A stretch of DNA of 21,842 nucleotides. It comes from a virus. The notes under the pieces are model-generated. The model had not been told where the DNA came from. It did no database searches and saw only the letters and a list, made by a program, of their open reading frames with translations. Location of the stretch: positions 1-21,842 of the IMG/VR virus record IMGVR_UViG_3300050033_000051, one strand, 5' to 3'. The position numbers and the translations under genes were made by a program. This document shows positions 4,503 to 20,315 of the stretch, in pieces; position 1 is the stretch's first letter; each line of letters opens with the position of its first letter.

Positions 4503-7043
4503 ATGGTAAAAAAAGATAGAAGTACGTTAGGTTATTTAGGTCAGGCGTTTCAATTAAAATTCATTGGTCAATTATTGACCGATGAAAAATACGCTAATTC
4601 GGTAATTGATTTAGTAAAACCAGAGTATTTCGATGATGCTCAAATTAGACGTGTTGTAATGCATTTAAAGGATAATCATGAGCGATTTGGTTGTATACCC
4701 GACTACATAAGTATGGAAGGTATATTAAGAAATGAAACATCTGGACACCAATTAGAACATTGTTTAGGGTTATTAACTAAATCTAAGGAATTTGGATTTA
4801 ACAATTCATTACAAATACAAGACGTTGCTAAAACATTTTTTAAACAACAGGAAACAATTAAAGTCGCTAAAGAAATACTTAAAATAGCTGAAGAAGGTGA
4901 TACTAATAAATATCATTTATGTGAAGATTTACTTAGAAAAGCGTTAGAGTTTGGTATTGATAAAGATGAAATAATTGATGTTTTTGATGATATAGATGGT
5001 GTATTATCTGATGACTTCAGAAAGCCAGTACCGACAGGTATAATAGGTTTAGATAGTAATATGGGTGGTGGATTATCTAAAGGTGAGTTAGGGGTTATTC
5101 TAGCTGCTTTCGGTGTAGGTAAAGCACAACCACTTCATTCTAAAATATTAACACCTAATGGTTGGGTAACTATGGGAGATATTAAAATAGGTGATAAAGT
5201 AATAAGTAGAGACGGTAAATCTTGTAATGTAACTGGTGTTTTCCCTCAAGGTAAAAGGCCAATATATAAGATTAGTTTTAATGATGGGACTGAAACATTA
5301 TGTGATGAAGAACATTTATGGAGTGTTAATACTATAAACCAGCGAAATAGAAGTACTAAAAAAGATGGTAAGAATATTACATTGCCACCCGATAATACTT
5401 ATAAAACATTGAGTACTATCAATATGTATAAAAATGTTAAGGTTTGGAATAATAGAAGATTAAATTATAAAATACCAAATATATCTCCGGTTGAGTTTGA
5501 TAAAAAAGAATTATCAATAAATCCATATTTATTAGGTGTGATAATTGGTGATGGGTGTATTACTATACATAATTCACCACATTTTGTAACTAAAGATGTA
5601 GAAATAATTGAAAATGTTAGAAAAGTATATGAAAATATTTCAGTTTCTGAACATACTAGGTTAATAACTAAAAAAAATGGTGAAATAATTAAAAGGTCAT
5701 TAATTAAAGTATCGTTATTAAACATGATACAATTATTAAAGGGTATTGGATTGTATGGTAGTAATTCAAAGACTAAATTCATACCTAAAGATTATTTATA
5801 TACTAGTGTTTCTGATAGGGTTAAATTATTACAGGGACTAGTAGATACAGATGGTTATATAGATAAGCATAGATGTGAAATTTCAACTGTATCTGAGACA
5901 TTATCTTTGAATATAAAGGAACTTGTCCAATCATTAGGTGGTAAGGTTAAAATTACAACTAAAATTGGTAAATATGACGATATTGAGTGTAGTTTAGTAT
6001 ATAGAATTGGTTTTAGCTTTCCTAATAATGGTATTATACCATCATTATTAACTAGAAAGATAAATAGATTTAAACCAAGAACTAAATATAGTGATAACAA
6101 ATTCATTAAATCTATCGAATATTACGGTGAAGAAGAAGCTAAATGTATTATGGTTGATAATCCTGAACATTTGTATGTCACAGATGATTACATCGTAACA
6201 CATAATACAACCGCTATAACTAAAATTGCTAATACCGCTAAAAACCACGGGCAAAATGTTTTACAAATATTCTTTGAGGATAATCCTAAAGTTATTAGAA
6301 GAAAACATTACTCTTGTTGGACTGGAATAAGTTTAAATGACTTACAAGATAGACGAGCCGAAGTTAAAGAAAAGGTAATGATTGAACAATCAAAACCGGG
6401 TATTATTAAACTTAAAAAATTCCCTAGTGATGGTACCACGATACCAATGATTAGACAATATATTAGAAAACAAATCGCTCAGGGATTTAGACCTGATGTT
6501 ATTTTAATTGATTATATTGATTGTATTACACCGAGTCGTACATTTACTGATAATAATATTGCTGAGGGTAATATTATGAGACAATTTGAATCATTATTAG
6601 ATGAATTACAAATGGTTGGTTGGACGGCGATTCAAGGTAATAGAAGTTCTATTGGTGCTGATTTAGTTGAAGCTAATCAAATTGGTGGTTCCATTAAAAA
6701 AGGTCAAATTGGTCATTTTATAGTGTCAATAGCTAAAACATTAACACAAAAAGAAGACCATACAGCAACAATAGCTATTTTAAAATCTCGTTTTGGTCCT
6801 GATGGAATAATTTTTAGAAATTGTATATTTAATAATGCAACAGTACAAATAGAAACGTCTGACGATGATAATGGCGCTTCGTTTTCTAAAGATAAAGAAG
6901 TAATGAAAGTTGAAGATGGTAAAAAAATAAAAGCTGCGTTGACTGCGATTCAACTTAGAAAACAAATAATTACTGATGAAACAGTACCAGTTAAAATAGT
7001 ATCCCTTACTGGTCCAGATGAGGGTGATAATACTCAAGAATAA
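4503..7043 (+). CDS. 41: gp41-like replicative DNA helicase, interrupted by an intein
   Basis: DnaB-family hexameric helicase that unwinds the fork for leading and lagging strand synthesis. The precursor is 846 residues. Removing the 361-residue intein (208-568) leaves 485, close to T4 gp41 (475). The N-terminal domain (about 1-160) is helical and DnaB-N-like. The RecA-like domain starts near 176 (PTGIIGLDSNMGGGLSKGEL). Walker A is split by the intein: GVGK (204-207) joins TTAITKIA (569-576). Walker B is DVILIDYIDCITP (665-677, Asp670). A glutamine in a polar loop (TAIQGNRS, 708-715) fits the sensor region. The ATG is 27 bases after the preceding gene, with an A-rich leader. The precursor cannot bind ATP normally until splicing restores the Lys-Thr junction. 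The C-terminal tail is charged, of the kind that often contacts the primase. Confidence 0.9.
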   Translation: MVKKDRSTLGYLGQAFQLKFIGQLLTDEKYANSVIDLVKPEYFDDAQIRRVVMHLKDNHERFGCIPDYISMEGILRNETSGHQLEHCLGLLTKSKEFGFNNSLQIQDVAKTFFKQQETIKVAKEILKIAEEGDTNKYHLCEDLLRKALEFGIDKDEIIDVFDDIDGVLSDDFRKPVPTGIIGLDSNMGGGLSKGELGVILAAFGVGKAQPLHSKILTPNGWVTMGDIKIGDKVISRDGKSCNVTGVFPQGKRPIYKISFNDGTETLCDEEHLWSVNTINQRNRSTKKDGKNITLPPDNTYKTLSTINMYKNVKVWNNRRLNYKIPNISPVEFDKKELSINPYLLGVIIGDGCITIHNSPHFVTKDVEIIENVRKVYENISVSEHTRLITKKNGEIIKRSLIKVSLLNMIQLLKGIGLYGSNSKTKFIPKDYLYTSVSDRVKLLQGLVDTDGYIDKHRCEISTVSETLSLNIKELVQSLGGKVKITTKIGKYDDIECSLVYRIGFSFPNNGIIPSLLTRKINRFKPRTKYSDNKFIKSIEYYGEEEAKCIMVDNPEHLYVTDDYIVTHNTTAITKIANTAKNHGQNVLQIFFEDNPKVIRRKHYSCWTGISLNDLQDRRAEVKEKVMIEQSKPGIIKLKKFPSDGTTIPMIRQYIRKQIAQGFRPDVILIDYIDCITPSRTFTDNNIAEGNIMRQFESLLDELQMVGWTAIQGNRSSIGADLVEANQIGGSIKKGQIGHFIVSIAKTLTQKEDHTATIAILKSRFGPDGIIFRNCIFNNATVQIETSDDDNGASFSKDKEVMKVEDGKKIKAALTAIQLRKQIITDETVPVKIVSLTGPDEGDNTQE
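5124..6206 (+). other. Class 3 intein with LAGLIDADG endonuclease, in the helicase P-loop
   Basis: A 361-residue in-frame insertion (precursor residues 208-568) between the Walker A lysine and threonine. Its first residue is Ala, not Cys or Ser, so the usual first step of splicing cannot occur. The three residues that define class 3 inteins are all present: Trp273 after the block B His271 (EEHLW), Cys548 at block F position 4 (AKCIMVD), and Thr566 before the terminal His567-Asn568. The next extein residue is Thr569, as class 3 requires Ser or Thr. In known class 3 inteins the block F cysteine makes the first nucleophilic attack. Two LAGLIDADG motifs, LLGVIIGDG (343-351) and LLQGLVDTDG (442-451), show a homing endonuclease that looks intact. 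The precise edges come from restoring the P-loop. Confidence 0.9.
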
Positions 7044-7062: not shown

Positions 7063-10000
7063 ATGGAAATTAATACAGAAATAAGTATAGATAAAATTTA
7101 TACTAGAGACGAGGTTTTGTCCGAATCGATTAAATATTTTAAAGGTGATAAAATGGCCGCTGATGCGTGGATTAATAAATATGCGTTAAAAGATTCAGCT
7201 GGTAATTTATATGAAAAATCACCTGATGATATGCATCATAGACTAGCTAGTGAATTAGCTAGAATTGAGTTAAATTATCCTAATCCAATATCAGAAGAAG
7301 AAATATTTGAGGTTATTAAAGATTTTAAATATATAGTACCACAGGGTGGTCCAATGTCTGGAATTGGAAATACGAAACAAACTGTTTCATTATCAAATTG
7401 TTTTGTCGTAGGTCATAAATATGATTCTTATGGTGCCATATTACGTACAGATGAGGAACAAGTACAATTAATGAAACGTAGAGGTGGTGTAGGTCATGAT
7501 TTATCACATATTAGACCAAGTGGCAGTGAAGTAAAAAACTCAGCTTTAACAAGTACCGGATTAGTTCCATTCATGGAGCGATATTCTAATACTACTCGTG
7601 AAGTAGCTCAAGACGGTCGTAGAGGTGCTTTAATGTTATCATGTTCTATTAAACATCCTGATTCAGAAAAATTTATGGATGCTAAATTAGAAGCTGGTAG
7701 AGTTACTGGTGCAAATATTTCTTTAAAGATTACTGACGATTTTATGGAAGCTGTTAAAGTTAATGGTTTATATACTCAACAATATCCGGTAGATTCTTTA
7801 AACCCAGTAGTAACAAAAGAAGTTAATCCTAAAACAATATTCAATAAGATTATACATAATGCGTGGAAATCAGCGGAACCGGGTATTTTATTTTGGGATA
7901 CAATTATTAATGAATCCATACCTGATTGTTATAAAGACCATGGTTTTGAAACACTCAGTACCAACCCATGTGTAACCAGTGATTTATGGGTTATGACTAA
8001 TAACGGCCCAAGACAGGTTATGGATTTAATCGGTCAAGAATTTAATGTTTTAGTTGATAATGGTTCGTATTTATCTGAGAACGGATTTTTTTATACTGGT
8101 GAAAAAATGGTTTACCTTGTTGAAATGAATAACGGTTTAAAAATAAAAACAACTGATAACCACAAATTTAAAAAAGTTATTAAAAATAACCGTGGTAAAA
8201 AAACTACTGAATGGATTGAATTAAAAGATTTAAATGTAGGTGATTCACTTAATTTAAATAAGAATAAAAACATTAATTTTAAAGCTTATTCACCAACACA
8301 TCATAATTACGATGATAAAATAGGTTGGCTTATTGGCTCATTAGTTGGTGACGGTTCATTGGTTGATAATACCGCATATCTTAGGTATTGGGGTGAAAAT
8401 AGAGCATCTATGAAGAAAATAGCTGTGGAATTAATTAAGAACAAAATTAATTATAGTGATAAACTTGGTAGTGGTGATGATAATAATGATATTATTACAG
8501 TTAAATCGAGTTCATTAGGGTTAATAGCAAATGAATTGGGGTTATATAACGGAAAGAATTTAGGTGTTAAAATTGAACAACAAAGTTCAGATTTCTATCG
8601 TGGGTTTATTTCAGGTATGTTTGATGCTGATGGAACTGTTTTAAATAATAAAGAAAAGGGTATAACGGTTAGATTATCATCATCAAATCTTAATAATTTG
8701 GAGGTTATTCAAAGAATGTTGCTTAGATTAGGTATTGTTTCAAATATTTCTAAAAATAGACGATTAGAAGGGAAAAAATTATTACCTAATGGTAAAGGTG
8801 GTTTAAGTGAATATTCAGTACAAGCACAACACGAATTAATAATTTCGAAAGAAAACTTAATTGTATTTAATGAACGTATTGGGTTTAAAGATATAAATAA
8901 ACAAGAAAAACTTGATAATGTATTATTACAATTAACTAGAGGTTTATATTCAGAATATTTTGTAGATAAAATAAAATCTATAACACTATTAGGTATTGAA
9001 AGTGTTTATGATTGTACGGTAAATGACGTACATGAATTTGATTGTAATGGTATAAGTGTACATAATTGCGGAGAAATTCCGTTATGTCCTTATGATTCTT
9101 GTCGGTTAATTTCACTTAATCTATTTAGTTATGTTGAGAACCCATTTACAAAAGAGGCTAAATTTAATTTTATTTTATTTAAAAAACATGTAATGTTAAC
9201 TCAAAGGATTATGGATGATATTATAGACCTTGAGTTAGAAAAAATTGATGCTATTGTATATAAATTAGATAATGACCCTGAACCTGATTACATTAAAGTA
9301 ATAGAAAGAAATTTATGGGAAAATATTAAAAATATGTGTATTAAAGGTCGTAGAACGGGTGTTGGTGTTACCGCTGAAGGTGATATGCTTGCGGCATTAG
9401 GTTTAACATACGGAACAAGAATAGCAACTGAATTTTCTACAAATGTACATAAAACATTAGCTATTAATGCTTATAAATCATCTTGTATTCTAGCTAAGGA
9501 AAGAGGTTCTTTTGAAGTTTGGGATTATAAAAAAGAATTAAATAATCCGATGATTAAAAGATTATGTGAGGCTGATACTGAATTAGCTGAAATGCTTAAA
9601 CATGGTCGAAGAAATATTGCTTTATTAACGTGTGCACCAACAGGGACTGTATCATTAATGACACAAACAACATCAGGTATCGAACCGGTATTTTTACCTA
9701 TCTATAAACGTAGAAGAAAAATAAATCCGAATGATAAAAATGTTAGAGTTGATTTTATAGATGAAAATGGTGATAGTTGGGAAGAATATTTAATTATACA
9801 TTCAAAATTTTTATTGTGGTTAAAGATTAATGGTTATAATATTGATGATATTCAAAAATACAACGAAGATGAATTAAAAAGAATTATAAAAGAATCACCA
9901 TATAATAACGCAACATCAGCTGATGTTGATTGGGTTGAAAAAGTTAGAATGCAAGGTGAAATTCAAAAATGGGTTGACCATTCTATATCAGTAACTGTAA

Positions 10001-11814
10001 ATTTACCTGAAAATACAACTGAAGAAATTGTATCTAAAGTATATATGATGGCTTGGGAATCTGGTTGTTTTAAATCTGGTAATGATGTATATACTAAAGA
10101 TGGTGTTAAAGATATTTCACAAATAATTATAGGTGATGAAGTATATGGACATGATGGTAATTTACATTTAGTTGATGATGTATATGATTTAAATGAAGAA
10201 ACTAGAAGATTTTTAAAATTTAAATTAAACGGTTATCAATCAATTGAATCAACGTCTGAACATCCTTTTTTGGTTATAGAATTAGATGAAACGGAAGAAA
10301 AAGTGTCTTGGTCTGAAAGATGTAAAAATTTAGTATGGAAAAAAGCTTCCGATATTAAAATTAATGACCATTTGGTTGTACCAAATAATTTTAGAAATTT
10401 AAATAACGTTATAAAATCATTAGATTTAACTAAATTTTTAAATTGCGACTTTTTAATTGATGGTGATGAAGTATTTTTAGCTAGAAAATTACCATGGAAA
10501 AAAGATTGTATAGTAAAAGCATCTAATTCAAATCAAATTCCTAGATATATCGATATTGATTATGATTTATGTTATTTTATTGGATGGTTTATAGCTGAAG
10601 GTCATTTTAATTCCGAATCGTATGTTAGATTTACGGTAAATCCAGAAACTGAAGTAGATGTGGCTGATAAATTAATAGATATTTGCCGTAGGAAATTTAA
10701 TATTGATGGGTATAAGGAAATTAAAAAATCTAATAACGGAACTTCATTAACAGTACAGTTTGGTTCTAAATTATTAGCTAATATTATGCGTTCTTTTTGT
10801 GGTCAATATTCGGAAAATAAACACTTACCCGAATGGTTTATGAAAATTGATAGTGTACTATTAAATGTCATACTTGAATCTCATTACTTAGGTGATAAAG
10901 GTATTACTATATCTAAACGATTAAGTAGAGAATTAACAATGGCTAGAAATATTCTTAATCAAAAAATTTATACTTCTGATAATTATGGTGAGGGATATGA
11001 AGTTAAACTGAAAAGTTCAATTAAAGATTCATGTAGTAAAGAATTTGAAACATTTTATGCTTATAGAGTTTTTAATATCAGCGATTCATTTTCTAATGAA
11101 AAGGTGTATAATTTTTCAGTTAAAGATGTTGATTCATATATTATAAATGGTGTTGCCGTACATAATTGTAAAGGTATAACAGTATATCGTGACGGTTCTC
11201 GTTCAGGTGTTTTAATTTCAGATAAAAAGATTGATAAGAAAACGGGTATTGAGATAATCAAAGAAACCCATGCACCTAAAAGACCTAAAAAACTTGAATG
11301 TAATATAGTTAAATTCCAAAATAACCATGAAAAATGGATTGGGTTTGTTGGTTTATATGGTGAAGATAAAAAACCTTATGAAATATTTACCGGTACAAAT
11401 GATTCATTTCTTATACCTAATTATGTTGAAAAAGGGTGGATTATAAAGGAAAAGGATTATGAAACTAATGTTTCTAGATATGACTTCTTATATATCGATA
11501 AAGATGGTTATGAACAAACATTAAAAGGTCTTAATAGAGCGTTTAATTCAGCTTTTTGGAATTACGCTAAATTAATTTCAGGTATTTTACGTCATGGAAT
11601 GCCAATACCTAGTATAATAAGCTTAATAGATACACTTCATTTAGATGAAAATAGTATATCATCATGGAAAAATGGTGTTAAAAGAATGCTTAAAGTATTT
11701 ATTAAAGATGGTACTGTAGCTACTGGCATTAAATGTCCTGAATGTGGGAATGAGAAGTTAAAGTATCAAGACGGATGTGTATCATGTGATTGTGGATACT
11801 CTAAATGTGGTTAA
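7063..11814 (+). CDS. nrdJ: Adenosylcobalamin-dependent (class II) ribonucleotide reductase with two inteins
   Basis: Reduces ribonucleotides to deoxyribonucleotides using a cobalamin-generated thiyl radical; it needs neither oxygen nor a separate radical subunit. The precursor is 1583 residues. Removing inteins at 303-668 and 1002-1368 leaves 850, normal for large bacterial NrdJ. Visible features: redox Cys113 (SNCFVVG); Asn301-Pro302 joined after splicing to Cys669-Gly-Glu671, forming the catalytic NPCGE; second redox Cys680, 11 residues after Cys669 as in NrdJ; phosphate loop APTGTVSL (858-865) and TTSGIEPVF; KGITVYRDGSR after the second intein; and a C-terminal zinc-ribbon-like end with cysteines at 1558, 1561, 1572, 1575, 1577 and 1582. 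The ATG at 7063 has an A-rich leader and is preferred to the in-frame ATG at 7018, which lies inside the helicase gene. The window shows no NrdA/NrdB-type genes. Confidence 0.9.
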   Translation: MEINTEISIDKIYTRDEVLSESIKYFKGDKMAADAWINKYALKDSAGNLYEKSPDDMHHRLASELARIELNYPNPISEEEIFEVIKDFKYIVPQGGPMSGIGNTKQTVSLSNCFVVGHKYDSYGAILRTDEEQVQLMKRRGGVGHDLSHIRPSGSEVKNSALTSTGLVPFMERYSNTTREVAQDGRRGALMLSCSIKHPDSEKFMDAKLEAGRVTGANISLKITDDFMEAVKVNGLYTQQYPVDSLNPVVTKEVNPKTIFNKIIHNAWKSAEPGILFWDTIINESIPDCYKDHGFETLSTNPCVTSDLWVMTNNGPRQVMDLIGQEFNVLVDNGSYLSENGFFYTGEKMVYLVEMNNGLKIKTTDNHKFKKVIKNNRGKKTTEWIELKDLNVGDSLNLNKNKNINFKAYSPTHHNYDDKIGWLIGSLVGDGSLVDNTAYLRYWGENRASMKKIAVELIKNKINYSDKLGSGDDNNDIITVKSSSLGLIANELGLYNGKNLGVKIEQQSSDFYRGFISGMFDADGTVLNNKEKGITVRLSSSNLNNLEVIQRMLLRLGIVSNISKNRRLEGKKLLPNGKGGLSEYSVQAQHELIISKENLIVFNERIGFKDINKQEKLDNVLLQLTRGLYSEYFVDKIKSITLLGIESVYDCTVNDVHEFDCNGISVHNCGEIPLCPYDSCRLISLNLFSYVENPFTKEAKFNFILFKKHVMLTQRIMDDIIDLELEKIDAIVYKLDNDPEPDYIKVIERNLWENIKNMCIKGRRTGVGVTAEGDMLAALGLTYGTRIATEFSTNVHKTLAINAYKSSCILAKERGSFEVWDYKKELNNPMIKRLCEADTELAEMLKHGRRNIALLTCAPTGTVSLMTQTTSGIEPVFLPIYKRRRKINPNDKNVRVDFIDENGDSWEEYLIIHSKFLLWLKINGYNIDDIQKYNEDELKRIIKESPYNNATSADVDWVEKVRMQGEIQKWVDHSISVTVNLPENTTEEIVSKVYMMAWESGCFKSGNDVYTKDGVKDISQIIIGDEVYGHDGNLHLVDDVYDLNEETRRFLKFKLNGYQSIESTSEHPFLVIELDETEEKVSWSERCKNLVWKKASDIKINDHLVVPNNFRNLNNVIKSLDLTKFLNCDFLIDGDEVFLARKLPWKKDCIVKASNSNQIPRYIDIDYDLCYFIGWFIAEGHFNSESYVRFTVNPETEVDVADKLIDICRRKFNIDGYKEIKKSNNGTSLTVQFGSKLLANIMRSFCGQYSENKHLPEWFMKIDSVLLNVILESHYLGDKGITISKRLSRELTMARNILNQKIYTSDNYGEGYEVKLKSSIKDSCSKEFETFYAYRVFNISDSFSNEKVYNFSVKDVDSYIINGVAVHNCKGITVYRDGSRSGVLISDKKIDKKTGIEIIKETHAPKRPKKLECNIVKFQNNHEKWIGFVGLYGEDKKPYEIFTGTNDSFLIPNYVEKGWIIKEKDYETNVSRYDFLYIDKDGYEQTLKGLNRAFNSAFWNYAKLISGILRHGMPIPSIISLIDTLHLDENSISSWKNGVKRMLKVFIKDGTVATGIKCPECGNEKLKYQDGCVSCDCGYSKCG
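7969..9066 (+). other. nrdJ intein 1 at the catalytic cysteine, with LAGLIDADG endonuclease
   Basis: A 366-residue insertion (precursor 303-668) that splits STNP from CGEIPL. It is a standard class 1 intein: Cys303 first, block B TDNH (364-367), and block F VYDCTVNDVHEF leading to the terminal His667-Asn668, followed by Cys669. The +1 residue needed for splicing is also the catalytic cysteine of the reductase, so any unspliced enzyme is inactive. Two endonuclease motifs, LIGSLVGDG (423-431) and FISGMFDADG (515-524), look intact. Edges are set by restoring the NPCGE motif. Confidence 0.93.
10066..11166 (+). other. nrdJ intein 2 near the C-terminal motif, with diverged LAGLIDADG endonuclease
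   Basis: A 367-residue insertion (precursor 1002-1368) between AWESG and CKGITVYRDGSR. Splicing residues are those of a class 1 intein: Cys1002, block B TSEH (1064-1067), C-terminal NGVAVHN and +1 Cys1369. The first endonuclease motif reads FIGWFIAEG (1172-1180), an accepted variant with Glu in place of Asp. The second is weak: ILESHYLGDKG (1270-1280). Splicing therefore looks intact, while DNA cleavage activity is less certain. It differs clearly in sequence from intein 1, so the two are not a recent duplication. Confidence 0.92.
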
Positions 11815-11934: not shown

Positions 11935-12324
11935 ATGGCTAAACAATATATAAATATTCAATACCCTTTTCAAAATAGTATTAAAGGTTTTTTCGTTAGT
12001 TTAACCGAAACTGACCAAGATGCTATAAAGTCAGATTTAATGCATTTAATTTTAACACCTAAGGGTAGTAGATTCTACATGCCAGAATTTGGTACGAACT
12101 TAATAAAATTTATTTTTGAACCAAATGATGGTTTAACGGAAACAGGTATAAAAGAAGGGATAACGGATGCTGTTAAAAAATATTTACCTAATTTAAAAAT
12201 AGACAACGTTGTTATAGATGTATTAGATATTAAAGATATGGAATATACTGCAACTATCAGAATTCATTACACAATAACTGATGACGTATTTACATCATCA
12301 GATTTTATAACAATAAATATTTAA
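11935..12324 (+). CDS. 25: gp25-like baseplate wedge protein
   Basis: Baseplate wedge subunit of the GPW/gp25 family, which helps nucleate sheath assembly on contractile tails. The 129-residue length matches T4 gp25 (132). The family signature is visible: [20 protein letters not shown] (35-54), followed by an IFEP segment (60-63). The C-terminal half alternates polar and hydrophobic residues, as expected for strands. It follows the nrdJ terminator, so it opens the structural unit. Its TAA overlaps the stop codon of the convergent endonuclease gene within TTAA at 12321-12324, so the endonuclease gene arrived without damaging this one. The T4-like gp6 gene lies just beyond that insertion. Confidence 0.9.
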
Positions 12325-14096
12325 ATTTTATATTCATATAATTTATTACCACAGTCATATATTCTATATATACCACGTTCTAACATTATTTGTTTTTCTG
12401 TTTTATTAATATTAAAACCTTGTTTGATTAAAATACTCTTTCGATAGCCAAATCTATGTTTTCTTATATTATTTAAAACGTACCAATAATTGGGTTTACT
12501 ATCATGTATAAATTCAAAATTTAATGTATTATATAAACTACCATTTGACCACCTTAAATCGGCATAACTAACCGTTTTTTCTGGTTTGTATATATTAATA
12601 AAATATTTAAATAATTTACTAGCGCCACCAATTACATTTGTATCTAATTTATTACAAAATCTAGTTAATTCATATTCATTTTTTTTACCACCCATAATAA
12701 TCCTAGATTGACCAAAGGTCATTAAACTAACCAATTCATCATTATAATATAAACCGAGTTTTATTTTGGATGCAACGTTTCCTTGTATATGATTATTATC
12801 TAAAAATAATTTACTTTCCCCCGAATTAATTTCCTTAATCATACATTTTCTACCATATATCTTATTTTCTGTTAATCCTAATATATTTTTAATTCTAGAT
12901 TTAACTATATCTTGTTTAAATAACCACTCATCTTCAAATATATGAATTAATTGAATGCCTTGTTTTTGACATAAATTAGTTTTATTTAAATGATAATTTT
13001 TATCTTTAAATAATTCGGAGTGCCAATATAATCCATCAAATTCAATTGCTAATTTATGTTCTGGAAGATAAATGTCCAATTCTAAAGGTTTAATGATATT
13101 CCTATCATTAGTCATGTATTCAATATTTAACGATTTAATAAAATCTTTCAATTCTAGTTCTACATAACTACTATCTTTATTATATAACGGATTACAATTT
13201 GTACAAATAATTTTTTCTCTATTTTTTCTAAGAACGTATAATTCTCTATTAATATTATATATTGAATTACAATCTTGACATTTTATGGTTAATGTTAATC
13301 CACTCCAATTAATTATTTCTTCTTTAACATCATTATGATTAATAAAAAGTTTAAACTTTTTATTAATCATATTATTAATACATTTTTTTTTAAAAATATC
13401 AGAATACATTGGATTAGTAACCCCGTGATTATTAAATAAGGTATTCTTTTGTTTATTGTTTAATATATCAGAATACATTGGGTTGGTGACACCATAATTA
13501 TTTAATAATGTTTCTTCTTTTTGTTTTTTAATTTCATTTGACTTTGATAAGTGGTCAACATCATAATTTTTTATAGCATATTCTTTTAATTTAAGTTTTG
13601 TTGAATCTAATTTAAGTGCTGTTGTTTCACCGAAATTTTCTAATGATGTTTTTTTTCTTTTTTCAACAACTTCGGGTATATTTGAAACGTTTTTAACACC
13701 ATATTTTTCAAAACATGTTTTTTCATATTTTTTCCTAACAACAATAGACTTTCCCGGGTGGTCTGTATTATATTTTTTTAAACATGTTTTTTTTCTCTTT
13801 TGAATTGTTAATTCACTATTCATAGAACATTTGGTCGAACAAAAATTTGAATAACCAATTTTTAAGTTTCCACTAAATTTAACTGGACCATCACAATATT
13901 TACATCTTGGTATTTCAATAACATTATTTATAAAATGCCAAACTTTAACCTTAAACAACATATCCTTAGGTAACTCACTATTATTAATAAAATTAGTTAT
14001 TAATTCACATATTTCAGGATGTTTATTATTTAATTTATTCTCGGTGCACTTCCAACCAGATTTATTATCTATTGTGAAAAACTCTTTATAATTCAT
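12321..14096 (-). CDS. Free-standing homing endonuclease, Vsr-like (EDxHD-type by resemblance), with repeats and GNAT-like C-terminus
   Basis: A 591-residue protein on the opposite strand to its neighbours. Parts in order: a zinc-finger-like motif (Cys65-x2-Cys68, Cys86-x3-Cys90); about six degenerate 25-30-residue repeats (about 97-240) of the form T-x4-KYGV-x-NP-x2-SD, where the decamer [10 protein letters not shown] occurs twice (202-211 and 225-234); a second zinc-ribbon-like motif (Cys273-x2-Cys276, Cys298-x2-Cys301); and a Vsr-like nuclease core with [17 protein letters not shown] (339-355), His359 in YWHSE, and IHIFEDEW (384-391). Last comes a domain from about 420 with [16 protein letters not shown] and a conserved [18 protein letters not shown] stretch, resembling an acetyltransferase fold. 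Such proteins cut DNA to spread into related phages, and the repeats probably bind DNA. The gene has its own promoter (14172-14141). It sits in a spacer, not in an intron. Confidence 0.85.
13376..13807 (-). repeat. Degenerate tandem repeats inside the homing endonuclease
   Basis: This part of the gene encodes about six copies of a 25-30-residue unit with a Lys-rich helix followed by YGV-x-NP-type loops. The last two complete copies share the exact decamer [10 protein letters not shown], 23 residues apart. The copies are diverged at the DNA level, so this is an ancient protein repeat, not a recent duplication. Related repeats in phage homing enzymes are thought to read DNA. Confidence 0.7.
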
Positions 14097-16093: not shown

Positions 16094-16417
16094 ATGGGAT
16101 GTGGATGTAAAAAACCGATTGCGGATGAAAAAGATAAAAAAGTTTTAATTAAAAAAAAGATAACTTTTAAAAATAATATTATAATTAATTTAATATTATT
16201 TTTATTAATGGTTGTATTAGTCCCTATATTATATCCTTTTATAATAATGGTATTATTTAAACATTTTGTTATTGGAGGTAATATTAATTTTTTGGATTAT
16301 ATTAATAAATTTAAAAAGAAAGAAAAAAATATTGATGATATAGATATTGAAAAAATCAATCCTGATGATTACGAATTATTAGGTGTAGATAAAATTGAAG
16401 TTGTAAGTAATGAATAA
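16094..16417 (+). CDS. Small membrane protein beginning MGCGCKKP, function unknown
   Basis: A 107-residue protein. It begins with MGCGCKKP and a lysine-rich stretch (residues 6-26). A long hydrophobic segment at about 29-57 is enough for one long or two short membrane helices. A lysine-rich patch (72-78) and an acidic C-terminus follow. The charge pattern suggests the N-terminus stays in the cytoplasm. The two cysteines at the very N-terminus are not a lipobox, because no signal sequence precedes them; they may bind metal or be acylated. It lies 49 bases after the gp6-like gene and its last eight bases overlap the tail protein start, so the two are probably translated together. I do not recognise the family. 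A role in tail assembly or in the host membrane is possible. Confidence 0.75.
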   Translation: MGCGCKKPIADEKDKKVLIKKKITFKNNIIINLILFLLMVVLVPILYPFIIMVLFKHFVIGGNINFLDYINKFKKKEKNIDDIDIEKINPDDYELLGVDKIEVVSNE

Positions 16418-19400
16418 AAATATAAGAATAAGGACCACACCGGGGGGTAAAGATAATTATGTAAAAATAAAAATAGACCAAGATTTTGATTTTCTTGAAA
16501 TATTATCTTTAAAAATATCGCAACAAGAAATATATAGAACTTTTTGTGCTGACTATGGTGTTGTTGTTGGTAGAGTTATTGCTAATAATGGGTTTGGTGT
16601 CCAAAATGCTAAAGTATCGGTTTTTATTCCAATAACAGATGATGATAAGAATAATTCATTAATCAGTGGGTTATATCCATTTACTTCAGTATCAGATAAA
16701 GATAATAATGGTGTTAGATACAATTTACTACCTAAAGAATCACAAGGTGAATGTCATAACCCAGTTGGAACTATTTCTAGTAAAAGGGAGTTCTTAGATA
16801 ATGATGTTTTAATAGAAATATATGATAAATATTATAAATTTACAACAACAACAAATTCAGCCGGTGATTATTTAATATTTGGTGTACCTGTGGGTAATTA
16901 TAATTTACATATAGATGTTGATATATCAGATATTGGTGGGGCAATAAGTCAAAGGCCTTATGATATGATTAGACAAGGTTCTAGTCCTAAATTATTCGAA
17001 TCACCAACAAAATTTAAAGCTGCCACTAACTTAGACAGTTTAGTACAAATAAAATCAGTTAATAGAGGTATAACTATTCAACCATTTTGGGGGGATAAAA
17101 ATAATTGTGACGTTGGTATAACGAGAGCTGATATCGATATAAATTATCATTTTGAACCACAAGCTATTTTCATAGGTGCTTTATTTTCAGATAATGAAAA
17201 AAATTCAATAAATAAAAATTGTAGACCAAGAACTAAATTAGGTGAATTATGTGATATGACACCAAGTCAAGGTACAATCAAAATGATTAGAAAAACTATT
17301 GATGGTAATGTTGAGAGTTTTGATGTTGATGGTGGTAGACTTATAGACAATAATGGTACATGGGCATATCAAATACCCATGAATTTAGATTATGTTATTA
17401 CAGATGAATTTGGTAGAATAATACCGTCTGATGACCCATCAAAAGGGGTACCAACAAGAGCTGAAGTTAGATTTAAAATATCAACTGATGTTACTGGTGG
17501 TGAAGGTAGATTAAGGACTAGAGCTAGTTATTTAATTCCTAATAATCCATTAGATACTGAAGAAAGTATTGATTATTCATTCGATGAAACAACATCACGA
17601 GATTCTAGTTTTGTGAGTTTAAGGTGGAATAAATTATATTCAGTTAAAAATTATATAGCTAGATTTCAACCTAATACAAACGCTAGTAATACTAATTATA
17701 TTGGTATTAAAAAAGTTGACGATTGTGGTAGTCATACACCATTTCCATATAATAGAGTTGCAACTAGTTTCAACCCATTATACATGATTATTTGTTTAAT
17801 ACTTGCTATTATAATTGATATTATATTTGCTATTAATTATACCATAAGTCTTATTAATAGTGTCATAATACAGGTTATTAGAGATATAATAGAATTTATT
17901 GCTGGAATAGGTGTACCATTACCAGACATTTTATTTTCTTGGAGTGGTGGTATTAAAATAAATTGGCGTAATAAATATTATTTTAGTGGGTTAAGAAGCT
18001 TAGAACCAGATTATATACCATGTATATCGTTAGAATGCCCTAGTAGTAGTGGCGAATTTTATGCACCGGGATGTAATGGTCCGGGATATGATGTTGAAAG
18101 AACTAATAAAGGTGGTATACTAGAAAATAGTAGAAATAGATATAGTGATTGCGTAGAATTAGAATTAGGAAAAGCCTTAGATATATTTCAGTTTGATTTT
18201 TATAATGATTGGGTTAATGGTTCATTATATTTACCTTTATTAAAATATAAACACAACGATTATTGCAACGTTGATTGTGGTGGTAATTGTCATACATCAT
18301 ATTTAGTTGATACTTGTGTATCTGACGGTGTTATAGTTGATGACATCCCAGTTGAATCTGCTGCAAACAAAGAATATCATTTAACAATTAATGAAGGAAT
18401 TGTTAAAAACTATAAAGATGAATTATTTTATGCGCCAAGATATGATAATGGTAAATACCCACTATATCCAACTGATATAATATTACTAGGTAGTACTTTA
18501 CCATGTGATTTAGATGGTATACCAACAATACATAATAAATTAATACCAACAACATATAAAATGCCTGAAATAATTGACCCGATTTTTGTGGATACATCGG
18601 TAGACCCTAATGATGAAATAGGTATAGACCCATTATTTTTTAAAAGTATTTCTTGTTTTTCATTTTATTCTAATATAGTTAATTGTCGTAATATAAATAC
18701 TACATGTGAAATAGGTATCGACTTATCTAATTCTGGTGTTAGTATCGATACTATAGTAAATGAAAATATTAACGATAAAACTATTAGACAAGATATAATT
18801 GGCATGGCATCTAACACAACTAATTATAACTCTATTGACGACCATTTTAGAAGTACTGATAATACCATTTATTATACTCAATCATCATTTGTATCTAATG
18901 ATTATTCTAATTATAGAAATATGATTAAATATAATGATAGTTTTAACGTATCTCGTGGTGGTTCATTATATTTTTATTTTGGTATTGTTCCCGGAAAATC
19001 ATCATTAGAAGCAGCTAATTTAAAATATTTCACTGAATGTATAATACCACCAATAAAAACATTAACTATTAATGGTACTATAATTAATAATATTAAAATT
19101 GGTGGTGATACAGGCTCAATAAACTTAAACGTATTAGGTGGCAGTGGTAATTATAATTACCACTGGGATAATGGACTAATTGGTAATACAATAACTGGTT
19201 TAACAGCTGGTAATTATACAGTAACTGTCACTGAAACAAGTGGTTTAGGTCTTACAGATAGTAGATTATTTACAGTAACTGAACCAGCACCTTTATTCTT
19301 CTATTTAACTACAACAGCATCAACAATAAGTGGTTCCAATGGTATTATATCAGTTAATAACATTATAGGTGGTATACCTACATATACAGCTGAATTACGT

Positions 19401-20315
19401 GATAATAGTGATGCATTAATTACTAGTCAATCAGTAATAGGTAATTCAAGTATATTTACAGGTTTAAATAATCAGATTTATAAGATTAGAATTATTGATT
19501 CTCAATTACCAACTAATAATTATTTAGAAAATTCAATTAGCGTAACTTCACCTAATTTATTAATAGCTTCCGTTACAAGTAGTAATATACTTTGTAACGA
19601 TAGTCATAATGGTATTGTTAATGTATTATTTACTGGAGGTACACCACCATATACAAATACATTAACTAACGGTATTTTAACATACACTGGTTTTACCATT
19701 AATAATCTTAGTGCTGGTACATACACTAATACATTGAAGGATTCTACATCTCCACAACAAATTATAACTTCAAGTATAACAATAACATCACCAGCCATAT
19801 TAGATTATATTATAAATGTTGGTAAGATAACATGTCATAGTAGTAATGATGGAAGTATAATATTTACATCAACATCTGGTGGTGTTGGTCCATATGAATA
19901 TAGTATTGATAACGGAACTACATGGTCAACAACTACAATATACCCTAGTTTATTGCCCGGTACTTACATTACCGCAATTAAAGATAATAATGGCTGTACC
20001 CTTAAAAAAGGTGATATAGATATTACATATAATGTTGGGTTAATCGCCCCACCGGTTCTGAATAATACATCAAGTGGTGGTTTACAACAATTAGTATTAA
20101 ATGCTAATGGTGGTGATTCAACTAATTATACATTTACAGTTAGTGGAGGTGACCCACTTATACTTGGTAGTCAAGCATATAATGGTAGTCATTTTAACCC
20201 TATATTACCAAAAACTTTTACATTTGCTTTAACAGGTGCAACTACTTACGATGTAAGTGTAGTTGATAATAATGGATGTTTAGCCGATAAGAGTGGACTA
20301 TCAGTAACAATATAA
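16410..20315 (+). CDS. Large tail or baseplate-associated protein with SprB-like repeats
   Basis: A 1301-residue protein, probably part of the tail or its host-contact apparatus. Parts in order: an N-terminal domain (1-50); a carboxypeptidase-regulatory-like Ig fold, seen as VVVGRVIANNGFGVQNAKVS (51-70) and SAGDYLIFGVPVGNYNL (150-166) around an insert; a long middle region with a hydrophobic stretch (about 455-510); a cysteine-rich stretch (Cys538, 543, 555, then Cys619, 623, 627, His628, Cys636); and four or five C-terminal SprB-like repeats (884-1301). Repeat signatures are GGTPPYT (1076-1082), LSAGTYT (1100-1106), LTAGNYTVTV (931-940) and KDNNGC (1191-1196). SprB is a flavobacterial gliding adhesin. 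The start overlaps the preceding gene by eight bases and the next gene begins four bases after the stop. Tail location is inferred from neighbours. Confidence 0.8.
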   Translation: MNKNIRIRTTPGGKDNYVKIKIDQDFDFLEILSLKISQQEIYRTFCADYGVVVGRVIANNGFGVQNAKVSVFIPITDDDKNNSLISGLYPFTSVSDKDNNGVRYNLLPKESQGECHNPVGTISSKREFLDNDVLIEIYDKYYKFTTTTNSAGDYLIFGVPVGNYNLHIDVDISDIGGAISQRPYDMIRQGSSPKLFESPTKFKAATNLDSLVQIKSVNRGITIQPFWGDKNNCDVGITRADIDINYHFEPQAIFIGALFSDNEKNSINKNCRPRTKLGELCDMTPSQGTIKMIRKTIDGNVESFDVDGGRLIDNNGTWAYQIPMNLDYVITDEFGRIIPSDDPSKGVPTRAEVRFKISTDVTGGEGRLRTRASYLIPNNPLDTEESIDYSFDETTSRDSSFVSLRWNKLYSVKNYIARFQPNTNASNTNYIGIKKVDDCGSHTPFPYNRVATSFNPLYMIICLILAIIIDIIFAINYTISLINSVIIQVIRDIIEFIAGIGVPLPDILFSWSGGIKINWRNKYYFSGLRSLEPDYIPCISLECPSSSGEFYAPGCNGPGYDVERTNKGGILENSRNRYSDCVELELGKALDIFQFDFYNDWVNGSLYLPLLKYKHNDYCNVDCGGNCHTSYLVDTCVSDGVIVDDIPVESAANKEYHLTINEGIVKNYKDELFYAPRYDNGKYPLYPTDIILLGSTLPCDLDGIPTIHNKLIPTTYKMPEIIDPIFVDTSVDPNDEIGIDPLFFKSISCFSFYSNIVNCRNINTTCEIGIDLSNSGVSIDTIVNENINDKTIRQDIIGMASNTTNYNSIDDHFRSTDNTIYYTQSSFVSNDYSNYRNMIKYNDSFNVSRGGSLYFYFGIVPGKSSLEAANLKYFTECIIPPIKTLTINGTIINNIKIGGDTGSINLNVLGGSGNYNYHWDNGLIGNTITGLTAGNYTVTVTETSGLGLTDSRLFTVTEPAPLFFYLTTTASTISGSNGIISVNNIIGGIPTYTAELRDNSDALITSQSVIGNSSIFTGLNNQIYKIRIIDSQLPTNNYLENSISVTSPNLLIASVTSSNILCNDSHNGIVNVLFTGGTPPYTNTLTNGILTYTGFTINNLSAGTYTNTLKDSTSPQQIITSSITITSPAILDYIINVGKITCHSSNDGSIIFTSTSGGVGPYEYSIDNGTTWSTTTIYPSLLPGTYITAIKDNNGCTLKKGDIDITYNVGLIAPPVLNNTSSGGLQQLVLNANGGDSTNYTFTVSGGDPLILGSQAYNGSHFNPILPKTFTFALTGATTYDVSVVDNNGCLADKSGLSVTI
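19059..20312 (+). repeat. SprB-like repeat region of the tail protein
   Basis: Encodes residues 884-1301. Repeat 1 spans about 884-958, repeat 2 about 964-1047 (most diverged), repeat 3 about 1052-1127, repeat 4 about 1133-1207, and a fifth partial or diverged unit about 1215-1301. Each has the pattern C or S, then dGsI, strand, GG-x-PY, strand, L-x-aGtYt, strand, D-x-nGC, strand, as in SprB repeats of Bacteroidetes surface proteins. The DNA copies are not close in sequence, so the array is old. Confidence 0.75.

Follow-up and report, generated by a model that had tools for sequence, protein, structure and literature searches.

The window, that is, the whole stretch of 21,842 nucleotides that was analysed (the 21.8-kb window alone constitutes IMG/VR record IMGVR_UViG_3300050033_000051), most probably comes from an uncultured phage and encodes a T4 gp41-like replicative helicase whose Walker A loop holds a full-length, mobile class 3 intein. 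We assign this reading a probability of about 0.93. The helicase precursor and its intein are organised as follows; here and below a slash in a motif marks the insertion point.

4503..7043, plus strand: ORF of the intein-containing T4 gp41/DnaB-like replicative helicase (846-aa precursor; phrog_19, DnaB_C, TIGR03600)
4503..5123, plus strand: N-extein, aa 1-207, with Walker A Lys207 as final residue
5112..5123, plus strand: 5' half of the Walker A motif (GVGK); homologues without insert read GVGK/TT or GVGK/ST
5124..6206, plus strand: class 3 intein of 361 aa with LAGLIDADG endonuclease domain (precursor aa 208-568)
5124..5126, plus strand: intein residue 1, Ala (class 1 nucleophile absent); A, S, C, L or V across relatives
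5301..5303, plus strand: Cys60 beside block B, invariant in 52/52 gp41-type inteins
5304..5321, plus strand: block B DEEHLW with the class 3 DxxH motif; His64 is B:10 and Trp66 is B:12
5529..5555, plus strand: LAGLIDADG motif 1, LLGVIIGDG (catalytic Asp codon 5550-5552)
5826..5855, plus strand: LAGLIDADG motif 2, LLQGLVDTDG (catalytic Asp codon 5850-5852; Pfam LAGLIDADG_3, E=8e-9)
6144..6146, plus strand: Cys341 (precursor Cys548), position 4 of block F, predicted to act as the first nucleophile; present in 65/65 inteins and aligned with the 6bs8/6rix Cys
6198..6206, plus strand: block G Thr359-His360-Asn361 (T566-H567-N568), invariant in 65/65
6207..6209, plus strand: +1 Thr569, predicted to be the second nucleophile and, once the helicase is spliced, its Walker A Thr
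6207..7043, plus strand: C-extein including the stop codon

The extein parts of the product matched phrog_19 (E=5e-43), TIGR03600 (phage DnaB, 6e-10) and Pfam DnaB_C. The latter score, 2.6e-5, was under the gathering cut-off, probably because the domain is split by the intein. Upstream of the helicase gene are a gp32-like single-strand-binding protein (SSB), a UvsX/RecA-like recombinase and a 5'-3' exonuclease; nrdJ and baseplate wedge genes follow downstream. By sequence, this gene order is a T4-like replication and tail layout. The host protein is a DnaB-family ATPase of phrog_19 within a T4-like replication cluster, and the profile match and the replication-gene neighbours bear out its original prediction as a T4-like replicative helicase.

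The intein starts with AQPLHS and finishes with YIVTHN. On translating ORF 4503-7043 the predicted coordinates 5124-6206 and every predicted residue number proved correct; Trp273, Cys548 and Thr566 of the precursor become Trp66, Cys341 and Thr359 in intein numbering. The insertion point had been put between the P-loop Lys and Thr. It lies exactly between Lys207 and Thr569, and excision in silico rejoins AAFGVGK/TTAITK, an intact Walker A loop. Residue 1 is Ala208, thus the standard N-terminal nucleophile (Cys, Ser or Thr) is missing as foreseen. The +1 residue is Thr569, where class 3 inteins have Ser or Thr and rarely Cys, and Thr359 within THN takes block G position 5. Both expected LAGLIDADG motifs are present, each with its catalytic Asp.

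A phmmer search of the PDB returned as best matches Mch DnaB1 (6rix, E = 4e-14) and Msm DnaB1 (6bs8, 1.6e-13), followed by gp41-1_WCT (6riz), a class 1 intein engineered with the class 3 triplet. In the phmmer alignment W, C and THN of the window intein were in register with Mch and Msm DnaB1: Trp66 in DEEHLW aligned with HQW of 6rix/6bs8 and is thus B:12, and Cys341 aligned with their catalytic Cys and is thus F:4. With such E-values and the residues in register the similarity is not a matter of chance. Block B reads DEEH and fits the DxxH pattern that class 3 inteins are described to have (PMC6195587). Thus the predicted W-C-T identity was upheld: Trp273, Cys548 and Thr566, like His567-Asn568 and +1 Thr569, fall on active-site positions of the solved Msm and Mch DnaB1 inteins, and the alignment to class 3 inteins placed Cys548 and Trp273 on the class 3 positions, not away from them.

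Structure prediction pointed in the same direction. An AlphaFold2 model of the intein, built from a 52-sequence alignment, had a pLDDT of 93.3 and a pTM of 0.90. In Foldseek the whole chain matched PI-SceI-type intein/LAGLIDADG proteins; VIA-align of the model against PI-SceI gave a Z of 27 over about 335 residues. The splicing domain superimposed on Msm DnaBi1 (6bs8) with Z 20.4 and 1.5 Å over 123/125 residues, a better fit than to any class 1 structure listed, be it a mini-intein or a splicing domain (Z 17.8 for gp41-1). A HINT fold is predicted for the splicing domain on the basis of this model. A tree of the splicing domain was calculated from 130 columns, with residue 1 and the W, C and T columns taken out. 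The window intein grouped with class 3 members in a starred clade (99/99) that comprised 13 class 3 rows; in this short masked tree gp41-1 was among unresolved branches, and class 3 as a whole did not separate from class 1 (one-clade test, p 0.20).

Conservation was examined in 65 distinct inteins, i.e. the window intein, those of viral contigs and those of twelve phage isolates. His (B:10), Trp (B:12), Cys (F:4), Thr (G:5), His360 and Asn361 were unvarying in 65/65, and the -1 residue was Lys in all. Residue 1 was Ala in 44, Ser in 18, and Cys, Leu and Val in one each; on the intein tree its Ser/Cys-versus-other state requires at least 7 changes. Residue 1 drifts while Cys F:4 is fixed, a pattern which argues that Cys F:4, not residue 1, starts splicing. 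The 80-locus fetch had in part used a block B pattern including Trp, therefore only the counts of Cys and Thr, and not that of Trp, are independent there. Because of this pattern we resampled by the N-junction alone (APxGVGK-Ala, plus a smaller Ser scan). These scans yielded 34 intein ORFs with a recognisable C-junction, and W-C-T was present in 34/34.

An Ala at residue 1 is also a property of class 2 inteins (PMC4031507). Accordingly, one might suppose a class 2-type reaction in which the N-terminal junction is attacked by the +1 Thr569 itself and Cys341 has a structural role only. This is highly improbable: Cys F:4, Trp B:12 and Thr G:5 do not vary among the 65 relatives, the published description of class 2 names KlbA orthologues whose G:6 residue is Ser (PMC4031507), where the window intein has His, and mutation of Cys F:4 to Ala ended splicing in three class 3 inteins (PMC5222942). 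Equally improbable is that the class 3 intein is decayed and no longer splices, leaving a dead helicase. There is a precedent on record, the class 3 pseudogene intein of Arthrobacter FB24 (PMC3196547). Here, however, every catalytic residue is intact, both exteins are open, the P-loop halves are conserved, and the gene is the phage's replicative helicase. The closest relatives of the window intein retain the same catalytic residues.

Class 3 chemistry was worked out on the Msm, Mle, Bvi and Mch inteins (PMC5222942, PMC7664689). By analogy, Cys341, activated by His64 and Thr359, would attack the Lys207-Ala208 peptide bond to form a block F thioester branch. The N-extein would then move to the hydroxyl of Thr569, Asn568 would cyclise assisted by His567, and an O-to-N acyl shift would restore the peptide bond and with it GVGKTT. 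Published mutants indicate that Thr G:5 can be of little consequence, which leaves Cys F:4 as the one decisive residue. In Msm DnaB the P-loop Ser is both second nucleophile and Walker A residue (PMC6195587). Since Thr569 is predicted to have the same double role, the helicase should be inactive, i.e. not bind ATP, before splicing. The LAGLIDADG domain would cleave uninterrupted P-loop alleles and so spread the intein via gene conversion. Splicing as well as DNA cleavage by the window intein are activities which we infer from its sequence.

For Msm DnaBi1 redox control has been proposed: H2O2 inhibits splicing, the catalytic Cys118 forms an intramolecular disulfide and Cys48 is implicated (PMC6195587). 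By this reasoning the window intein would not only be selfish, it would gate replication in a redox-dependent manner via Cys341 and a second cysteine, for which the invariant Cys60 might speak. We regard this as unlikely. At the position of Msm Cys48 the window intein has Ile47, a Cys is found there in 0/65 relatives, and many uninterrupted homologues manage without any intein. A Cys48-type switch was set aside for the window intein because the residue is Ile; Cys60 is not the counterpart of Cys48. As an observation in its own right, Cys60 is shared by 52/52 gp41-type class 3 inteins and is also a Cys in gp41-1.

Is the P-loop site occupied in all phages of this type? Along with the original prediction a survey for empty alleles had been suggested. 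Using the spliced helicase sequence, 80 helicase homologues were fetched from viral contigs; all 80 run straight through the P-loop as GK/TT or GK/ST. In the three closest occupied copies from the whole-precursor search (L002-L004) an intein interrupts the gene between the very same two codons. A scan with the intein alignment identified 80 further viral loci of this helicase family with a homologous insert at exactly the same point. The LAGLIDADG aspartates are kept in the window intein and in 63/65 relatives. With the inteins of L002, L003 and L085 the window intein shares 72-73% identity, while their exteins are only 59% identical to those of the window. The helicase nearest to that of the window (L005, 63% identical) has no intein.

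Exchange is seen in L090 and L116. Their exteins are 97-98% identical in DNA and essentially identical in protein, and the flanking genes share 95-96% DNA identity; yet between the inteins at the same site identity drops to 67% for DNA and 55% for protein. As read from these sequences, in L090/L116 (also L089) one intein is replaced by another. Left of the insertion 9/60 bases are mismatched compared with 4/240 in the next stretch (p = 1e-4), a cluster which fits the expectation for a co-conversion tract. In occupied/empty helicase pairs a co-conversion signal was not convincing. Over all pairs, identities of inteins and exteins correlated with r = 0.87 in a Mantel-type comparison; thus most copies were passed on by descent over long times as well, and mobility as a general mismatch of intein and extein histories was rejected. 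It is visible in particular pairs only. Because near-identical helicase genes are either empty or carry very different inteins, the element moves.

A GVGK-Cys scan for class 1 inteins at the same site produced mostly short ORFs and one intein with Cys1 plus W-C-T. The short ORFs consist of the helicase N-part and an intein start unlike that of the window intein; the class 1 ones are not its close relatives. In L165, L169, L171, L181, L184, L185, L187, L200, L216, L217 and similar loci the helicase N-halves stop about 45-60 residues past GVGK/C. By sequence these are apparent N-fragments of class 1 inteins, either split or atypical, which occupy the P-loop site of the class 3 family.

How does the window intein compare with known systems? 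The inteins of Mycobacterium smegmatis DnaBi1, M. leprae DnaB and M. chimaera DnaB1 (6bs8, 6rix, 6riy) share with it a replicative helicase as host, P-loop site b, the DxxH block B, W-C-T, the THN end and a non-nucleophilic residue 1. They are, however, mini-inteins without endonuclease and have Ser+1, whereas the window intein has a LAGLIDADG domain and Thr+1, is hosted by a T4-like phage helicase and has no equivalent of Msm Cys48. Class 3 inteins of phage isolates (Vibrio phages YC and 1.244.A, Enterococcus Ef2.1, Serratia BUCT660, Shewanella FishSpeaker, mycobacteriophage Colt and others) are full-length like the window intein, have W-C-T and sit in a P-loop protein, with GK on their left and Thr, or Ser in the case of Colt, on their right; yet they are only 31-38% identical to it, and several reside in other helicases or in terminases. 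The class 1 intein gp41-1 (6qaz) has strong sequence similarity to the window intein in block B and shares with it the THN end and an origin in a T4-like helicase. It differs by Cys1, Phe at B:12 and Asp at F:4, and engineering W-C-T into it (6riz) did not result in productive class 3 splicing (PMC7664689).

The definition of class 3 inteins dates from 2010-2011. The original prediction considered them much rarer than class 1, a notion which does not hold for tailed phages. The window intein matched 685 of 50,697 phage records, 629 of them across at least 80% of its length; by 2020 1,701 class 3 inteins had been catalogued in nr, 82.5% with LAGLIDADG motifs (PMC7891396), and the DnaB P-loop is their described insertion site b (PMC6195587). 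All twelve phage isolates examined first had W-C-T. Among nine further readable matches down the ranking seven had W-C-T, one was without Trp and one was class 1 (Salmonella phage ST44). As judged by sequence, isolates seem to hold few members of the gp41-type branch: 38% was the best identity to the window intein among the isolate inteins compared. We did not find a description of this branch in the open-licence literature, which, given that scope, is weak evidence.

Two isolate loci deserve mention. The terL intein of Vibrio phage JA-1 (L358) has Ala1, Cys F:4 and Thr G:5, and apparently Asn replaces Trp B:12. In Escherichia phage FL15 (L360, PP400778.1) the product is annotated as replicative DNA helicase DnaB. 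Its junction SRQLGK/TTAVA presumably represents a T4 gp17-type terminase Walker A, and the helicase annotation probably derives from the class 3 intein.

Next to the helicase, nrdJ carries two inteins of its own.

7969..9066, plus strand: nrdJ intein 1, class 1, 366 aa; Cys1, Asp F:4, Phe B:12, +1 Cys
10066..11166, plus strand: nrdJ intein 2, class 1, 367 aa; Cys1, Asn F:4, Phe B:12, +1 Cys

The predicted class 1 identity of both is evident from Cys1, Phe B:12, Asp/Asn F:4 and Cys+1 in the sequence. In direct comparison with the helicase intein E-values were 0.008 and 0.22; with so little similarity the nrdJ inteins look independently acquired. A 591-aa homing-endonuclease-like gene (12321-14096, minus strand), flanked by two baseplate genes, is an apparent fourth mobile element within 22 kb; its product matched phrog_3339 (E 2e-138), DUF7487 and, weakly, Vsr/MTES_1575. 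At 16410-20315 a 1301-aa protein with zero PHROG matches is encoded. It carries repeats which we take to resemble Bacteroidota adhesin repeats, and matches of the adjoining baseplate protein include Flavobacterium and Microcystis phages. A Bacteroidota host for the window virus is only a guess.

The variability of residue 1 touches on the origin of class 3 inteins. According to one report class 3 cannot arise directly from class 1 (PMC7664689); according to another it originated through loss of the N-terminal nucleophile (PMC3196547). In the gp41 P-loop lineage 18/52 members have Ser1. Most simply, Ser1 with W-C-T kept is drift at a position which no longer matters. Alternatively, the gp41 lineage and its kin might comprise natural class 1/class 3 hybrids, some of which may splice via residue 1 as well as via Cys F:4. 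This we consider unlikely. If true, such hybrids would be intermediates, still in existence, that bear on how class 3 came about, which is disputed; within that lineage the window intein, having Ala1, would then count as a common class 3 intein. The P-loop helicase intein of L211 (IMGVR_UViG_3300029928_000001) combines Cys1 with the W-C-T residues Trp B:12, Cys F:4 and Thr G:5, and has Thr+1; its kin in the same helicase type, L277 and L262 (compare L300), start with Ala. From its sequence, L211 is a possible natural class 1/class 3 hybrid.

Taken alone, the window intein is one more class 3 intein. The surrounding family is more useful, because it offers dozens of natural variants at one essential site, with the signature fixed, residue 1 drifting and alleles empty or swapped. 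Such variants, with Ser1, Cys1 and Ala1 members at hand, and such alleles in near-identical phages make the question of class 3 origin testable.
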